Shown in pieces: positions 52,847-61,166 of a stretch of 64,000 nucleotides of DNA. Origin of the DNA: Vogesella oryzae (lineage in GTDB: Bacteria; Pseudomonadota; Gammaproteobacteria; Burkholderiales; Chromobacteriaceae); contig NZ_CADEPL010000002.1 of assembly GCF_902829295.1 (NCBI RefSeq), forward strand, positions 1-64,000. Reading direction: 5' to 3'. The notes under the pieces were generated by a model. The model was given only the letters and a program-made list of their open reading frames with translations. It ran no database searches and had not been told where the DNA came from. A program made the translations under genes and the position numbers. How positions within the stretch are numbered: the first letter of the stretch is position 1; each line of letters opens with the position of its first letter.

Positions 52847-53620
52847 TTAGCCGGCCAGTGCATTCGCAATGGCCACATATTGCTCCACGCAGAGGTTTTC
52901 GGCGCGCAACCCGGCATCGATGCCCAGTGCGGCCAACTTCTCGTCGTCGATTATGCCCTTGAGGTTGTTGCGCAGTGTCTTGCGACGCTGGGCAAATGCC
53001 TGCGCCACCACCTGCTCCAGCACAACCTCGTCGCGGGCAATGCCGCAACGGCCCGGAACGGGGATCATCCGCACCACCGCCGAGTCAACCTTCGGCGGCG
53101 GGTAGAACGAACCGGGCGGTACCAGCAAGATCTGTTCCATGTCGAAACGGTACTGCAACATCACCGTCAAACGGCCGTAATCCGGGGTGCCGGGTACCGC
53201 CACCATGCGGTCCACCACCTCTTTTTGCAGCATGAAGTGCATGTCGATCACCCGCTCGCCGTAGCTGGCAAGATGGAACAGCAGCGGGGTGGAAATGTTG
53301 TACGGCAGGTTGCCCACCAGCTTGAACTTGCCGTCGGTCACCGTGCCGAAATCGAATTCCAGCGCATCGCCTTCATGGATGGTCAGCCGCTCCGGCGGGT
53401 ATTCGCGCTTCAGGCGCGAGATGATGTCGCGGTCGATCTCGGCGACATGCAAATGGTCTAAACGCTGCAGCAACGGCTTTGTCAGCGCCCCCAGGCCCGG
53501 CCCGATCTCGATCACCACGTCGTCGCGACGGGCGCCAACGGCGTTGACGATATCCTCGATCACCCGCTGGTCCTGCAAAAAGTTCTGGCCGAATCGCTTG
53601 CGCGGTATGTGTTTACTCAT
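52847..53620 (-). CDS. rsmA: 16S rRNA dimethyladenosine transferase (KsgA)
   Basis: Dimethylates two adjacent adenines in the 3' hairpin of 16S rRNA, a late step of small-subunit assembly. The 257-aa product starts [19 protein letters not shown], then has the SAM-binding motif [16 protein letters not shown], the acidic AEIDRDI, and the catalytic [14 protein letters not shown]. The C-terminal part contains [12 protein letters not shown]. It lies 115 bp upstream of the ABC operon, in the same direction. Confidence 0.96.
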
Positions 53621-55277: not shown

Positions 55278-57035
55278 TTACGGCGCAGCGCTGGTCTGGC
55301 CCGCTTCGTCGTCGCCCGATAGCTGCAGCCGGTTGCGGCCATTGCGCTTGGCGCGGTACAGCGCGACATCGGCGGCGCGCAGCGCTTCGTCCCAGGATTG
55401 TGGACTGTCACACCAGTGCAGGCCGAAGCTGGCGGTGACATGCAGCAGCGGGTGCACCTCCTGCCAGCTGTAATCCATGATCGCCAGCCGCAAGCGCTCG
55501 CAACACACCAGCACGCTCTCCACGGTGGTATCCGCCAGCAACAGCACAAACTCCTCGCCGCCATAGCGCGTCACCAGATCGCTGCTGCGCGTGCGCAGGG
55601 TGATCAGCTGCGCCACCTTGGTCAGCGTCTCGTCGCCGACGGCATGGCCGAAGCGGTCGTTGATGCTCTTGAAGTGGTCCAGGTCCAGCACTACCACCGC
55701 CAGCCCGCCGCCCTCGCTGCCGAGCCGCGCCAGCCGCGCCGGCCCTTCCAGATCCAGTAACCGGCGATTGCCCACCCCGGTCAGCGGGTCGACCAGCGCG
55801 GCTTTTTCCAGCTCGTTCATGCGCGCATCGGCCACCGCTTTTTCCGCCTCCAGCCGCGCCGCCCGCAACCGTTCGCGCTCCGCCTGCAAGCGCTCGCGCT
55901 CGGTCGCCAGCTGCGCGCTGGTGATTTCCAGCTCCTTGCGGATCGCCCAGCCCTGGGTGCTGCTGCGCTGGTTGGCTAGTTCCTGTTCGATGCGGCGCAG
56001 CGCCTCCAGCTCCACCAGTGCCTGCTGGAACTCGCCGCACTCCTTGTACAGCCGGTACAGGCTCTCGTGCGCCAGCACCTTCATGTCGAACTCCAGCACA
56101 TCGTTCTGCGCCAGCAGCGCATGCAACGCCGCGGCCGCCGCCTGGTGCTGGCCGCAGTGATGCAGCAGGGTGGCCTCGGCCAGATCGACATTGCGGCGGA
56201 TATGGGTAAAGTGCCCCTCTTCGGCCAGGGTCTGCGCCCGGGCCAGCGCAGCCTTGCTGTCGGCAAAGTTGCCGAGGTTGGTGTGGATTTCCGCCAGATT
56301 GATCGAGGCCGTCGCCAGCGAATGCAGGTTGTTGCCACTGCGCGCCAGCTGCTCGGCCAGCTCGAACTGGGTGCGCGCCAGCAGGAACAGCCGCTGCGCC
56401 TCGTCGCCATTGCCCAGCACTTCCTGCTGCAGGCCGGCGGCGCGGTACGTCACCCCGAGATTGGTCAGCGCACTGAAACAGGCGACATCGTCCGCGGCCA
56501 ACCTGGCCTGGCTTTCCGCCTGCTGCAGCAGGCCGACGCACTGCTCCAGGTCGCCCAGCGCGGAGAACGAGGCCAGACCGGCACGGTTCAGCGCCCACGA
56601 CAGCAACAGCGGGTCATCGCACAGGCGGGCGCCGCCCAGCGCCTCCAGCGCGTATTTCAACGCGTCCTGGCCCAGCCCCATCTCGTTGCAGGCCATCGAC
56701 ACGGTACACAGCACATCGGCGCGGATGGCGGCGTCGTTGACAAAATCCAGTACCGAGGCGGCTTCCAGCCCGTACTGCACGGCATCGGTCAGCCGCCCCA
56801 GCCGCAACGAGTGCAGCGCCAGCAACACCAGCGCCTCGTCGCGCTGGCGACGAAAGCGCGGCAGGCTGCACAGCGCCAGCGCATCCGCGGCGGCCTGGCA
56901 GCCAAGATGATGCTCGCCATTCTGCCGCGCCCGGCGTGCCTGGCGCAGCAGCAGGGAGATAGTGCGGCTGGTTCCCGGCGTCGTGGCCGGTAGCGGTGAC
57001 TCATGCATGGCGTTAGCCGTGACTCGTGTTGGCAT
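55278..57035 (-). CDS. diguanylate cyclase with N-terminal TPR repeats
   Basis: Makes cyclic di-GMP. The 585-aa product lacks a signal peptide or membrane helices. Residues ~25-370 form helical TPR-like repeats (SLRLGRLTDAVQYGLEAASVLDFV, LGDLEQCVGLLQQAESQARLA and others), a coiled-coil linker (~370-425, ATERERLQAERERLRAARLEAEKAV) follows, then a GGDEF domain with active site GGEEF near 491-495 and an RSSD inhibitory site five residues before it, so product inhibition is expected. TPRs suggest control by a protein partner. Start could be Met1 or Met10. Confidence 0.93.
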   Translation of the reverse strand: MPTRVTANAMHESPLPATTPGTSRTISLLLRQARRARQNGEHHLGCQAAADALALCSLPRFRRQRDEALVLLALHSLRLGRLTDAVQYGLEAASVLDFVNDAAIRADVLCTVSMACNEMGLGQDALKYALEALGGARLCDDPLLLSWALNRAGLASFSALGDLEQCVGLLQQAESQARLAADDVACFSALTNLGVTYRAAGLQQEVLGNGDEAQRLFLLARTQFELAEQLARSGNNLHSLATASINLAEIHTNLGNFADSKAALARAQTLAEEGHFTHIRRNVDLAEATLLHHCGQHQAAAAALHALLAQNDVLEFDMKVLAHESLYRLYKECGEFQQALVELEALRRIEQELANQRSSTQGWAIRKELEITSAQLATERERLQAERERLRAARLEAEKAVADARMNELEKAALVDPLTGVGNRRLLDLEGPARLARLGSEGGGLAVVVLDLDHFKSINDRFGHAVGDETLTKVAQLITLRTRSSDLVTRYGGEEFVLLLADTTVESVLVCCERLRLAIMDYSWQEVHPLLHVTASFGLHWCDSPQSWDEALRAADVALYRAKRNGRNRLQLSGDDEAGQTSAAP

Positions 57036-57382
57036 TTGTTTTTTTATTGGCGGTAAGCTGTAAGCAAACCGCTATTAAACGGAGGCATTTCAATAACGCA
57101 TTGCTTTATATCGCCTATTTCGTCGCCGGAACAGAGGCTACACACGTCATAGCCGGTTTTTTTGCCGCCTGCTGACCGGTCGCGCCACAACTGCTGTCTT
57201 CTTCAAGCAAGCGCATCAAATTTTGAGAAATTCCGCCACCTGCGCTAACAGCTGCCTGCGGCCAGCTGTTGCTGCCATACCACCGCTAGCCACCCGTTTT
57301 TGCCGCTACTGACAGCAGGCTGTCAGTAGCACCTGTCGATACTGGCGACATGCAGCCGTGCTGCCAACCCGAGGAGTCCATC
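57036..57382. other. divergent intergenic region between diguanylate cyclase and VOC genes
   Basis: 347 bp, more A/T-rich than its surroundings, with no convincing gene. It holds the perfect inverted repeat CTACTGACAG cagg CTGTCAGTAG at 57306-57329, about 55 bp before the VOC start, and several T-runs (57041-57048, 57157-57163) near the cyclase start. Promoters for both directions are expected here. Confidence 0.5.
57306..57329. promoter_or_regulatory. inverted repeat CTACTGACAG-N4-CTGTCAGTAG
   Basis: Perfect 10-bp arms with a 4-nt spacer, 54 bp before the VOC gene. It is not followed by T residues, so an operator is more likely than a terminator. The orientation (ACAG..CTGT) is opposite to a LexA box. 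Regulator unknown; the WYL protein three genes on is a candidate. Confidence 0.45.
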
Positions 57383-57751
57383 ATGTCGCCGTTTGTTCAC
57401 TGGTTCGAAATTCCCGTTACCGACTTTGCCCGCGCCGTCACCTTCTACCAGCAAGTGTTCCAGTTGCAGTTGCGGCTGGAACACTTCATGGGCGAGCAAA
57501 ACGCGGTCTTCACCCTGGCGGATGGCAGCAGCCACGGCAGCCTGTTGCACAGCCCGCGACTGCAAGCGGCGGCGCAAGGTTGCCGGCTGTATCTGGATGG
57601 CGGCGCCGATCTGGCCGCGCTGCTGGCCCGCGTCGCACCGGCCGGCGGCCAGGTGCTGATGGAGAAAACCGCACTGCCGGATGGCATGGGCGATATCGGC
57701 CAGTTCGCCGATCCGGACGGCAACATCATCGGCGTGCATAGCGCGCCATGA
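57383..57751 (+). CDS. VOC-family protein (glyoxalase/dioxygenase fold)
   Basis: A 122-aa single-domain vicinal oxygen chelate protein: VHWFEIPVTDFARAVTFYQQVFQLQL at the N-terminus and MGDIGQFADPDGNIIGVHS at the C-terminus, with the usual paired beta-alpha units. The ATG at 57383 follows GAGGAG. Its stop overlaps the EVE gene (ATGA). Substrate unknown; related proteins act on glyoxal adducts or bind small aromatics. Confidence 0.9.
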   Translation: MSPFVHWFEIPVTDFARAVTFYQQVFQLQLRLEHFMGEQNAVFTLADGSSHGSLLHSPRLQAAAQGCRLYLDGGADLAALLARVAPAGGQVLMEKTALPDGMGDIGQFADPDGNIIGVHSAP

Positions 57752-58191
57752 GCCGCTACTGGATCGGCGTTGCCAGCCGCGACCACGTTGGCCGCGGCGT
57801 GGCCGGCGGCTTTGCCCAGCTGTGCCACGGCAAGGCGGGGCCGCTGGCGCGCCTGCAGCCGGGTGACGGCCTGGTGTATTACTCGCCGCGCGAAGTGTTC
57901 GGTACCGACACGCCATGCCAATGCTTCACCGCCATCGGCATCGTGCAGCCGCGCCAGCCGTATCAGGTGCAGATGGCGGCGGATTTCACCCCGTGGCGGC
58001 GCGATGTGCAATTCGTACCCGCCACGGCCGCGGTCATCCGTCCGCTGCTGACCCGGCTGGCCTGTATTCCGGACCCGCAGCACTGGGGCCAGGCATTCCG
58101 CTTCGGCCTGCTGCAGATCAGCGCCGCCGACTTCCGCTTGATTGCGGCGGCGATGGGCGCGACACTGCCCGCTTCCATGCTGACGGAGTAA
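57748..58191 (+). CDS. EVE-domain protein
   Basis: A 147-aa protein consisting of an EVE (PUA-like) domain: YWIGVASRDHVGRGVAGGFAQLCHGKAGPLARLQPGDGLVYYSPREVF and CFTAIGIVQPRQPYQVQMAADFTPWRRDVQFVP. EVE domains bind modified bases in DNA or RNA and are often fused to restriction endonucleases; this one stands alone. It overlaps the VOC gene by 4 nt and is followed by the WYL regulator after 4 nt. Confidence 0.88.
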   Translation: MSRYWIGVASRDHVGRGVAGGFAQLCHGKAGPLARLQPGDGLVYYSPREVFGTDTPCQCFTAIGIVQPRQPYQVQMAADFTPWRRDVQFVPATAAVIRPLLTRLACIPDPQHWGQAFRFGLLQISAADFRLIAAAMGATLPASMLTE

Positions 58192-58195
58192 TGCG

Positions 58196-58909
58196 ATGCG
58201 CCGAGCCGATCGCCTGCTGCAGATCCTGCTGCTGTTGCGCGGCCGCCGTCGCACCACCGCCGCCCAGTTGGCCGCCTGGCTGGAAGTGTCGCCGCGCACC
58301 GTGTACCGCGACATGGCCGACCTGCTGGCCAGCGGCGCGCCGCTCAACGGCGAAGCCGGCGAAGGCTACTGGCTGGAGGCCGGCTTCACCCCGCCGCCGC
58401 TGAGTTTCGGCAGCGACGAGTTGTCGGCGCTGGAAGCCGGCGCCCGCATGCTGGCCGGCTGCGCCGACAGCGATACCGCCGCCGCCGCCCACAGCGCGCT
58501 GGCCAAGATCCATGCCGTGCTGGGCAGCAGCGGACTGACGCCGTCGCCGTTATTCGTGCCGCCGTTGCGGGCACCGGCGCCACAGGCGCTGGCCGCGCTG
58601 CGCCGCGCCTGCGAGCGGCAGCAATGCCTGCAACTGCACTACCGCGATGCCGCCGGCAACAGCAGCCTGCGGGATATTGCCCCGCTGGGGCTATTCTTCT
58701 GGGGCGAACACTGGACGCTGGCGGCATGGTGCCTGCTGCGGCAGGACTACCGCCACTTCCGCACCGACCGCATCGCCGCGCAGCAGGCGGCCAAGCTGCC
58801 GTGGCCGGACGGCATCTCGCTGGATGGCTTTCTGCAGCAGGCGGGCGCCGGTGACGCCGGCCGCCTGCGGCTGCAACAGCAGACGCGCCAGCCCTGGCAC
58901 CGCTCTTGA
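58196..58909 (+). CDS. HTH/WYL-domain transcriptional regulator (YafY-like)
   Basis: A 237-aa regulator: N-terminal HTH_11 (RADRLLQILLLLRGRRRTTAAQLAAWLEVSPRTVYRDMADLLASG), then a WYL domain from ~140 (QCLQLHYRDAAGNSSLRDIAPLGLFFWGEHWTLAAWCLLRQDYRHFRTDRI). WYL domains sense ligands, including nucleic acids in some defence systems. It is probably in the VOC-EVE-WYL operon and may autoregulate it. Confidence 0.9.
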   Translation: MRRADRLLQILLLLRGRRRTTAAQLAAWLEVSPRTVYRDMADLLASGAPLNGEAGEGYWLEAGFTPPPLSFGSDELSALEAGARMLAGCADSDTAAAAHSALAKIHAVLGSSGLTPSPLFVPPLRAPAPQALAALRRACERQQCLQLHYRDAAGNSSLRDIAPLGLFFWGEHWTLAAWCLLRQDYRHFRTDRIAAQQAAKLPWPDGISLDGFLQQAGAGDAGRLRLQQQTRQPWHRS

Positions 58910-58964
58910 ATCCGTAGCGCAATACCTGGTTGGCCGCCGCCACCACCACGCAAGGAGCCGCAAT

Positions 58965-59372
58965 ATGGAAGCCCGACTGAGTTTCATCACCCTCGGCGTC
59001 GCCGATCTGGCGCGCGCCACCGCCTTCTACCGCGACGTGCTGGCGCTGCCGCAGATCGCCATGCCGGAGGGCGCCGGCGTCGCCTTCTTCGAACTGGGCA
59101 AGACCTGGCTGTCGCTGTTCCCGCGCAGCGAGCTGGCACAGGATGCCGGCGTGGCGGACAGCCCGCCGGCAGCGTTTCCCGGTTTTTCGCTGGCGCACAA
59201 TGTGCGCGAACGGTTAGACGTTGATGCGCTGCTGGCCGAAGTCGCCAGCCGGGGCGGCGAGATCGTCAAACCGGCGGCGGATGCCTTCTGGGGCGGACGT
59301 AGCGGCTACTTCCGCGATCCGGACGGCTTCCTGTGGGAAGTGGCGTGGAACCCGCAGTTTCCGCACGTGTGA
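58965..59372 (+). CDS. VOC-family protein
   Basis: A 135-aa VOC protein distinct from the one at 57.4 kb: [49 protein letters not shown] and the C-terminal [28 protein letters not shown] precedes the ATG. It lies 55 bp after the WYL gene, in the same direction. Substrate unknown. Confidence 0.9.
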
Positions 59373-59401
59373 ATCCACTACCGCGTGCCGAGCTGACACA
59401 T

Positions 59402-59412
59402 GCGGCCAACCT
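59402..59412 (-). repeat. single AGGTTGGCCGC motif copy between VOC and GST genes
   Basis: Intergenic copy, 29 bp after the VOC stop, in a 200-bp gap with no other recognised feature. Confidence 0.6.
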
Positions 59413-59572
59413 GTCGGCGACGGCGGCAGCTTGGCCGCCGTCTTGCCCGCCGTACTATTCCGCTGCCGGCAATAATCAATTACCCGCCACGGTCATTCTG
59501 TTCTCCGCCAGGCAGGCGCACAGTGCCGCCATCCGCATCCTGTCGCGATGCGCCACTGCCCCGGAGATCAAT

Positions 59573-60199
59573 ATGGCTCGCCTGCCCGTCAAACTGTATA
59601 CCTTCCCGCTGTCCGGCCACGCCCATCGCGTACGGCTGGCGCTGGCCTTGCTCAAGGTGCCTACCGAGCTGATCGAGGTGGACCTGCGCGCCGGCGCACA
59701 CAAGCAGGCCGATTTCCTGAAGCTGAACGTGTTCGGCCAGGTACCGGTCATCGACGATAACGGCACCATCGTTGCCGACTCCAATGCCATCCTGGTGTAC
59801 CTGGCGCGCCACTACGGCAATGGCGACTGGTTGCCAAACGATGCCGTGGGCGAGGCCGCGGTGCAGCGCTGGCTGTCGGTGGCCGCCGGTCCGCTGGCCT
59901 TCGGCCCGGCCGCGGCGCGGCTGATCACGGTATTTGGTGCCGGCTTGCACGCCGAGGAAGTCATCGCGCGCGCCCACAAGCTGTTCGCGGTGATGGAAAC
60001 GGAACTCACGCGCCAGCCATTCCTCACCGGCGACAAACCCAGCATTGCCGACATCGCCAACTACACCTATACCGCGCACGCGCCGGAGGGCAATGTCTCG
60101 CTGGCCGCTTATCCGCAGCTGCGCGCCTGGCTGGCACGCATCGAAGCCCTGCCGGGTTTTGTCGGCATGCAGCACACGGCTGTCGGCCTGGCCGGCTAA
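59573..60199 (+). CDS. glutathione S-transferase
   Basis: A 208-aa cytosolic GST: a thioredoxin-like N-terminal domain ([73 protein letters not shown], with the cis-Pro VP and the SNAI glutathione-gamma-Glu site) and a helical C-terminal domain ([17 protein letters not shown] with the N-capping S-x-A-D motif). GGAG precedes the ATG at 59573. It probably conjugates glutathione to electrophiles. The next gene starts 26 nt later. Confidence 0.93.
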
Positions 60200-60224
60200 G
60201 CGTCGCACCGGCAAGGAACGCAGC

Positions 60225-61166
60225 ATGCACAGCACCTCTCCCTGGCACCGTGGCGAACGGCTGCTGCAGCAACGGCTGGGCGTTGCCGAGCAGATGGCCG
60301 CCGTCGGCCAGCGCGTGATTCGCGACTACATGCCCGAGCAGCACCGGCAGTTCTATGCCCAGCTACCGTTCTTGCTGCTTGGCGGCGTGGACGCCGCCGG
60401 CTGGCCGTGGGCCGGCATCCTGGAAGGGACTCCCGGCTTTGTGCAGTCGCCCGACCCCCGCCTGCTGACGATAGCCGCCCAGCCGGCACGCGATGATCCA
60501 CTGCGCGCCTGCCTGTCACCCGGCGCCCCGGTCGGCGTGCTGGGCATCGAGCTGCCGACCCGCCGCCGCAACCGCATGAACGGCGAACTGCAAACCGTGT
60601 CGGCTGCCGGACTGACGGTGGCGGTGACACAATCGTTCGGCAATTGCCCGAAATACATCCAGCAGCGTGATGTCAGCCTTGTCCCGCTGCCGGCCGGCGC
60701 TGCGGCGCCGGCCGAACAGCACGGCGCGCTGGATGAAGCCGCGCGGCAGCTGATTAGCGGCGCGGACACGCTGTTTGTCGCCAGCAGCTTTCCCGGCGAT
60801 GCCAGCCAGCCGGCGGCCTCGGTCGATGTGTCGCATCGCGGCGGCAAACCGGGCTTCGTCCGGGTGGAAGGCAACCGGCTGACGATTCCGGATTTTTCCG
60901 GCAACCGCTTTTTCAATACCTTGGGCAACCTGCTGCTCAACCCCAAGGCCGGGCTGCTGTTCATCGACTTTGCCAGCGGCGACCTGCTGCAGCTGACCGG
61001 GCGCACCGAGATCGTCTGGCAGGACGACACCTTGGCCGCATTCGCCGGCTGCGAGCGTGCCTGGCACTTCACGGTCGAACAGATGTGGCGGCGGCGCGGC
61101 GCGCTGGCCTTGCGCGGCCAGTCTCCCCGGCTGTCGCCCAGCCTGCAGCACACCGGCAGCTGGTAA
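60225..61166 (+). CDS. FMN-binding pyridoxamine 5'-phosphate oxidase-like protein
   Basis: A 313-aa split-barrel flavoprotein. The first half reads VIRDYMPEQHRQFYAQLPFLLLGGVDAAGWPWAGILEGTPGFVQSPD; the second has LFVASSFPGDASQPAASVDVSHRGGKPGFVRVEGNRLTIPDFSGNRFFNTLGNLLLNPKAGLLFIDFASGDLLQLTGR, a clear PNPOx-like unit. AAGGA precedes the ATG. It probably forms an operon with the GST gene. Related proteins are fused to ferredoxin reductases or act as general FMN/F420 oxidoreductases; actual reaction unknown. Confidence 0.87.
   Translation: MHSTSPWHRGERLLQQRLGVAEQMAAVGQRVIRDYMPEQHRQFYAQLPFLLLGGVDAAGWPWAGILEGTPGFVQSPDPRLLTIAAQPARDDPLRACLSPGAPVGVLGIELPTRRRNRMNGELQTVSAAGLTVAVTQSFGNCPKYIQQRDVSLVPLPAGAAAPAEQHGALDEAARQLISGADTLFVASSFPGDASQPAASVDVSHRGGKPGFVRVEGNRLTIPDFSGNRFFNTLGNLLLNPKAGLLFIDFASGDLLQLTGRTEIVWQDDTLAAFAGCERAWHFTVEQMWRRRGALALRGQSPRLSPSLQHTGSW

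Follow-up and report, generated by a model that had tools for sequence, protein, structure and literature searches.

A palindrome at constant distance from a -10 element in front of a VOC-EVE-WYL operon of Vogesella oryzae: a predicted activator-dependent promoter of one WYL clade

An operon of four plus-strand genes in Vogesella oryzae, VOC1-EVE-HTH-WYL-VOC2, is preceded by a long palindrome and a -10 element. Comparison of genomes shows, at the level of sequence, the palindrome itself, its constant spacing to the -10 element, the absence of a -35 element, the link to one clade of WYL proteins and the recurrence of the arrangement in front of other genes. We infer that the WYL protein of the operon binds the palindrome and activates transcription, and we think it rather probable that this is an autoregulated chemical-stress operon, in which the HTH-WYL protein would be an activator resembling DriD and PafBC at a promoter without a -35 element. 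The grouping of the genes is of a known kind; the operator, the promoter and the regulon seem to be the new part. A search of the open-access literature, partly swamped by unrelated primer sequences, yielded no description of the operator, and the existence of one is not thereby excluded. A defined operator, a constant geometry and predicted targets make one large clade of WYL proteins directly testable, and the EVE proteins of this class of operon gain a concrete regulatory setting. Below, ‘the window’ denotes the whole stretch of 64,000 nucleotides that was analysed, and its relevant features are as follows.

57306-57329 (+), candidate operator/promoter palindrome of 24 bp, CTACTGACAG-N4-CTGTCAGTAG, an inverted repeat and conserved motif
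57338-57343 (+), -10 hexamer GATACT, 8 nt past the palindrome, with a conserved yAnnnT offset
57371-57376 (+), putative Shine-Dalgarno-like GAGGAG, proposed from its letters
57383-57751 (+), VOC1, a protein of the glyoxalase fold that usually accompanies the WYL gene (PF00903, E 7e-12)
57748-58191 (+), EVE-domain protein with the PUA-like fold of modified-base readers, accessory member (PF01878, E 2e-14)
58196-58909 (+), HTH-WYL (YafY-type) transcription regulator of 237 aa (PF08279 (HTH_11), E 4e-13; PF13280 (WYL), E 7e-19)
58965-59372 (+), VOC2, also of the glyoxalase fold, probably the operon's fourth gene (PF00903; recurs after the WYL gene in the genus)

The operon and its genes in the window and in relatives

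Profile matches from Pfam and NCBIfam bear out the VOC, EVE and WYL identities proposed by the sequence-only reading of this DNA, the EVE protein also matching NF002616 with a score above the model cut-off. The tight coupling described there holds as well, with an ATGA overlap between VOC1 and EVE and a gap of 4 nt between EVE and WYL; VOC2 starts 55 nt past the WYL gene. The structural model of the EVE protein (pLDDT 88.5) has as its closest solved fold PH1033 (Z 16.1), which we take to be an EVE-type protein, and further similarities are to a portion of VcaM4I (Z 12.0) and, at Z about 11, to YTH domains; PDB sequences gave no match at E<=0.001. Pfam and the model agree on the EVE/PUA-like fold, which is that of a modified-base reader, and base binding is predicted. 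The VOC protein had been called an enzyme. Its glyoxalase fold stands, and the status of VOC1 as an enzyme is uncertain: late in the fold, at what is presumably a metal-ligand position, its residue is G, and both VOC2 and 3bqx, which is glyoxalase-related, carry E there. VOC1 may be an enzyme or a binding protein. The only PDB match of VOC1 at E<=0.001 is Rv0577; no usable match named an activity for the VOC proteins, the Fos models hitting VOC2 far below their cut-off.

Co-occurrence of the three genes was confirmed within the genus. EVE adjoins WYL in 10 of 13 genus genomes (our own included), and VOC1 precedes EVE in nine of those ten, the place in G002 lying beyond the contig end; each of the 11 other genus loci with a WYL gene (L030, L032-L039, L051 and L052) has VOC2 behind it. 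The VOC1 homologue of L034 matches in two frames, possibly owing to a frameshift. Some genus operons contain extra small genes, either ABM-like with Cdd1/HHH-like or DUF1801 with HHH-like, several of these Pfam matches falling below the curated cut-off. An EVE match came from 21 of 61 close genomes, our own among them (the match in G025 is weak), and, at E<=1e-10, from 15 of 300 order-level genomes; in seven of these 15 (G000, G006, G017, G073, G059, G133 and G257) no more than 3 kb separates EVE from a WYL homologue. Other EVE genes, judged by eye from translations, adjoin MarR-like and VOC/SRPBCC-like genes, or a GNAT-like gene.

Pairs of YafY or MarR regulators with EVE, accompanied by SRPBCC, EhpR or VOC proteins and predicted to mediate ligand-activated responses, are described in the part of Bell, Wolf and Koonin 2020 (PMC7641849) available to us. 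The association of genes is therefore already known, since the window operon agrees with that account: it combines, in one operon, an EVE gene, an HTH-WYL regulator of the YafY type and adjacent genes for small proteins of a ligand-binding fold, namely VOC1 and VOC2. It differs from the operons in that part of the article in having VOC1 first and VOC2 last, and the same portion of PMC7641849 was not found to describe an operator or promoter for YafY/MarR-EVE-VOC operons.

The intergenic region upstream of the operon is shared with a divergent GGDEF gene (55278-57035, minus strand); L030 and L034-L038 have a homologue of it, likewise divergent, in the corresponding position. Downstream of the operon are GST, PNPOx-like and LysR genes. 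VOC2, the GST gene (59573-60199) and the PNPOx-like gene (60225-61166) lie on the same strand as a small detoxification-type cluster (58965-61166), of which only VOC2 was seen beside WYL in the genus loci.

The palindrome and the promoter geometry

The sequence-only reading had noted a perfect inverted repeat with 10-bp arms. The repeat is real and was under-described: its arms are perfect over 12 bp, GCTACTGACAGC at 57305-57316 and GCTGTCAGTAGC at 57319-57330, with 2 nt between them. One hundred shuffles of the window produced no copy of it, and the organism's own genome holds no second copy with up to three mismatches. Each of the 11 other loci inspected also carries the palindrome ahead of its VOC1 homologue, with an exact core in nine of them and one core mismatch in L031 and L035; it is because of this retention that we do not regard it as a product of chance. 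Transcription is predicted to start at about 57350, and the palindrome, as the predicted binding site of the WYL protein, would cover positions from about -44 to -21 and with them the -35 slot. No consensus sigma-70 promoter was found in a scan of 57000-59600, which fits a promoter without a -35 element.

The geometry becomes clearer when loci are aligned. When 49 WYL-proximal sites, which represent 25 genera, are oriented like the WYL gene and given weights by genus, the consensus is CTRCTGACA-nnAYGn-TGTCAGYAG, after which come 8 weakly conserved bases and a -10 hexamer of the form yAnnnT. (The alignment excludes L002, together with the WYL loci that have no site within two mismatches, L039, L041-L043, L047, L056 and L151-L155; the contig of L039 ends before the expected position.) The window itself matches the combined pattern of palindrome and -10 exactly, at 57306-57343. 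Among the 25 genus representatives, 21 have the A and T of the hexamer at this offset; the best of the other 69 flank offsets reaches 4 of 25. The -35 slot falls within the centre of the palindrome, and there, with spacers of 15-19, the best match to TTGACA reaches 2/6 in 40 of the 49 sites; the mean best match of 2.16 is poorer than that of shuffled sequence (2.70). Thus the palindrome seems to replace the usual -35 signal, and the constant 8-nt spacing together with the absent -35 suggests the site of an activator rather than the operator of a repressor.

The same geometry was observed outside the sample from which it was derived. Among 33 loci around exact cores, nearly all of them away from a WYL gene (L095 adjoins one), every site with both outer arms (9/9) shows the A and T of the -10 together with the central A and G in one and the same orientation; in the other loci, the -10 letters were present in 6 of 24. 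A 38-bp promoter pattern, with one mismatch allowed, was found in 31 of 229 class-level genomes (own included), compared with 0/229 for the reversed pattern. Where the pattern leaves -10 letters free, 40 class-level stretches, drawn from 29 of these 31 genomes, show T in 29/40, T in 23/40 and A in 29/40, which is TATAAT-like. It should be noted that the loci L121 and L165 stem from close relatives and are not independent. A WYL homologue lies within 22 of the 40 stretches, 10 of the 40 matched no query gene, and each of the nine pattern-bearing genomes searched out of the 31 contains a WYL homologue.

The WYL protein and its possible mode of action

To our knowledge, WYL regulators of the YafY type are common and have been little studied. 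The window protein is matched by phmmer to PafBC and CapW, with PafC as the best match, and Foldseek places PafBC, DriD, CapW and BrxR among the closest solved folds to its structural model, which is weak (pLDDT 66.7, below 50 at residues 217-236) and was used for fold matches alone. DriD, a WYL activator of Caulobacter, has sites over the -35 region at a constant distance from the -10, according to the accessible portion of PMC12340889. Going by that portion, the N-terminal HTH followed by a WYL domain, a pseudo-palindromic site over the -35 (predicted for the window), an equal distance to the -10 and a poor -35 are common to DriD and the window, whereas the operator letters, the WCX domain and the DNA-damage regulon of DriD set it apart (PMC12340889). 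PafBC acts by sigma adaptation, as stated in the part of PMC11804915 available, and the consensus for its recA-P1-type promoters is given in the accessible part of PMC5656591 as tTGTCRgtg-8nt-TannnT. The downstream half of the window-type site, TGTCAGYAG-8nt-yAnnnT, resembles it, with TGTC one base further from the -10. Excerpts of the same two papers indicate that mycobacterial PafBC differs in being a heterodimer, in having WCX domains, in recognizing a single motif and in its DNA-damage regulon (PMC5656591, PMC11804915). Another likeness concerns a pair of arginines in the WYL groove: R189 and R192 of the window protein align with R201 and R204 of PafC, two residues on which the binding of ssDNA by PafBC depends (PMC11804915, in part), and in 36 rows of the WYL alignment R192 is invariant and R189 is present in at least 90%.

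SiwR of M. smegmatis is a third comparison, drawn from part of PMC10693628. It is an activator under genotoxic stress and binds a palindrome between -35 and -10, so that the likeness, a WYL activator with a promoter palindrome, is one of position and not of site letters; a glyoxalase-like gene adjoins it in some actinobacteria. It differs from the window protein in that WCX is present and DinB-family genes are regulated (PMC10693628).

One point against a DriD/PafBC-like reading is that the window protein has no WCX, the C-terminal domain that dimerises DriD and PafBC and in PafBC also holds ssDNA, as far as the sources available in part describe it. The WYL match covers residues 131-194 of 237 and the WCX of DriD residues 246-327; as the window protein ends 43 residues after the match, there is no room for such a domain. 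For this reason the protein is taken to work like DriD and PafBC at most, and is not filed as a member of their group.

A possible reading, which we place on the unlikely side, is that the protein is instead an autorepressor of the BrxR/CapW kind, which would block RNA polymerase at the palindrome and release it upon binding a ligand. BrxR and CapW, which are repressors, share the HTH-WYL fold with the window protein and are among its closest solved folds; the palindrome overlaps the promoter, the regulator gene is inside its own operon, and a constant position over the promoter is also possible for a repressor. However, no -35 lies beneath the operator (the best match being poorer, on average, than in shuffled sequence), the 8-nt spacing to the -10 is constant in 21 of 25 genera and the conserved centre is asymmetric, all of which would be expected of an activator-dependent promoter. 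BrxR and CapW also differ in being tied to BREX and CBASS defence systems, as the available parts of the sources have it, and none was found among the four operon proteins and ten neighbouring ones. Activation is preferred because of the DriD geometry and the PafBC-like downstream half-site.

The preferred mechanism can be outlined as follows. The HTH-WYL protein would bind the 24-bp palindrome over the -35 region, 8 nt from the -10; a signal, perhaps a xenobiotic or damage to DNA or nucleotides, would engage the WYL domain, and sigma-70 RNA polymerase would then be recruited. Such recruitment would raise expression of VOC1, EVE, the WYL gene itself and VOC2, and in relatives the same regulator may drive separate detoxification-type genes too. 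The EVE protein would read a modified base tied to the chemical stress. If activation proves true, the DriD mode of binding over the -35 would extend to WCX-less proteins.

The WYL clade, the genes behind other sites and the question of defence

The exact core CTGACA-N6-TGTCAG is present in 22 of 61 close genomes (reversed pattern, 5/61) and in 67 of 300 order-level genomes (reversed pattern, 13/300), the individual sites of the latter search being those among the matches listed. It occurs somewhere in 40 of the 44 genomes with a WYL match at E<=1e-44, as opposed to 27 of the remaining 256 (P is about 4e-27 by Fisher's test, which ignores relatedness). Of the 44 genomes, 33 carry an exact core no more than 1.7 kb upstream of the WYL gene, and 5 more have a core with one or two mismatches there; these counts, made by hand, are the unbiased figure. 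The six remaining genomes have no site near the WYL gene: in G018, G172 and G236 the full motif is located elsewhere, an exact core is missing from G096 and G139, and G185 has one whose position was not assigned. A tree of 71 WYL proteins contains a 100/100 split, and the palindrome keeps to one side of it, accompanying, near-matches included, 50 of 57 ‘MRRADRL’-like and 0 of 14 ‘MSRxxRL’-like proteins; the 57 rows are biased, as L125-L150 were chosen for a site and a WYL gene listed near each other.

VOC1 homologues occur at 43 of the 49 WYL-proximal sites and EVE at 12 of 49. Thus the suggestion that the palindrome is a likely operator gains from the association of site and WYL gene as far as the WYL gene and VOC1 are concerned, and does not hold for EVE. 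A palindrome specific to EVE was considered and ruled out, the site being kept without EVE in the WYL genomes G003, G005, G025, G030 and G034. EVE is found on both sides of the split in the tree, so either EVE and WYL have been joined more than once or EVE has often been lost; we read EVE as an optional member of a chemical-stress regulon. The window WYL clade differs in the tree from that of the other WYL-VOC-EVE loci. A second YafY clade (MSRxxRL), in other genera and alphaproteobacteria, is encoded before VOC-like and EVE genes at L041-L043, L047 and L004-L006, and the operator CTRCTGACA-N6-TGTCAGYAG is absent from the loci of this clade that were examined.

A candidate regulon is formed by the genes immediately behind those sites that are not beside a WYL gene. 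They encode VOC proteins (L116, L163), GST (L089, L198), MlaC (L167), a CecR-type TetR regulator (L107) and ABM-like proteins (L212, L219, L222); an HlyD-type adaptor gene (L161) and a GFA-family gene (L162) follow sites in which one outer arm is incomplete. At class level DUF2461 is a frequent operon partner. The best evidence for EVE as a true member of the regulon is from G360 (86% complete, 6% contamination), where an EVE gene that shares 67% identity with its best-matching EVE query starts about 46 nt past its own -10 and the WYL gene is on another contig; this is a single example, and a second is needed. To judge from the genes concerned, the site-linked set (glutathione, glyoxalase fold, efflux) looks like chemical-stress handling, not phage defence. 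At L120 and L121 a full-length operator and -10 are aimed at a convergent TetR gene followed by an efflux-adaptor-like gene, the latter called by eye from a cut-off piece without a Pfam match.

A wider proposal, rather unlikely as it stands, is that of a class-wide regulon in which short, WCX-less, DriD-like WYL activators would act at CTRCTGACA-N6-TGTCAGYAG promoters, the WYL domain sensing a damage-derived (oligo)nucleotide or modified base, EVE reading the lesion in RNA or DNA, and VOC, GST and efflux proteins removing the cause. We did not meet such a WCX-less WYL regulon in the literature searched.

The earlier suggestion of a role in defence was not borne out. In such a role EVE, under WYL control, would recognise modified bases of phage or other foreign DNA, and in its favour both EVE and WYL are domains met repeatedly in defence (PMC7641849, as far as the available part goes) and the EVE model resembles part of VcaM4I, a restriction enzyme. 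Against it, the operon encodes no nuclease or other effector, EVE is at 12 of 49 sites only, and the genes behind other sites are VOC, GST, ABM-like, GFA, HlyD, MlaC and TetR genes. For the four operon proteins PADLOC returned nothing beyond WYL models and one weak hit to Cas3c (E 0.013), and for ten neighbouring proteins one mad2 cross-match and one weak match (E 0.009), and thus no convincing system; neither a defence effector nor a defence-island neighbourhood was found among these proteins. We have dropped the defence reading on these grounds and consider it very improbable. The mad2 model matches 52847-53620 (minus strand, E 6e-25), by eye a KsgA-like rRNA dimethyltransferase, and is likely a false positive.

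Many of the inspected core sites in genomes without a close WYL match have no outer arms and resemble chance matches or terminators. That the window palindrome is itself a terminator or an unrelated repeat, as a terminator-like core match elsewhere in the same genome might suggest, is scarcely credible and was ruled out, the window site lacking such flanks, having no second copy with outer arms, and standing upstream of a -10 in a register conserved across genera. The match in question, the sole other exact core in the genome (L087, contig C20, 159472-159489), is flanked by AAAAGC and GCTTTT and is likely, from these flanks, to be a bidirectional terminator hairpin.
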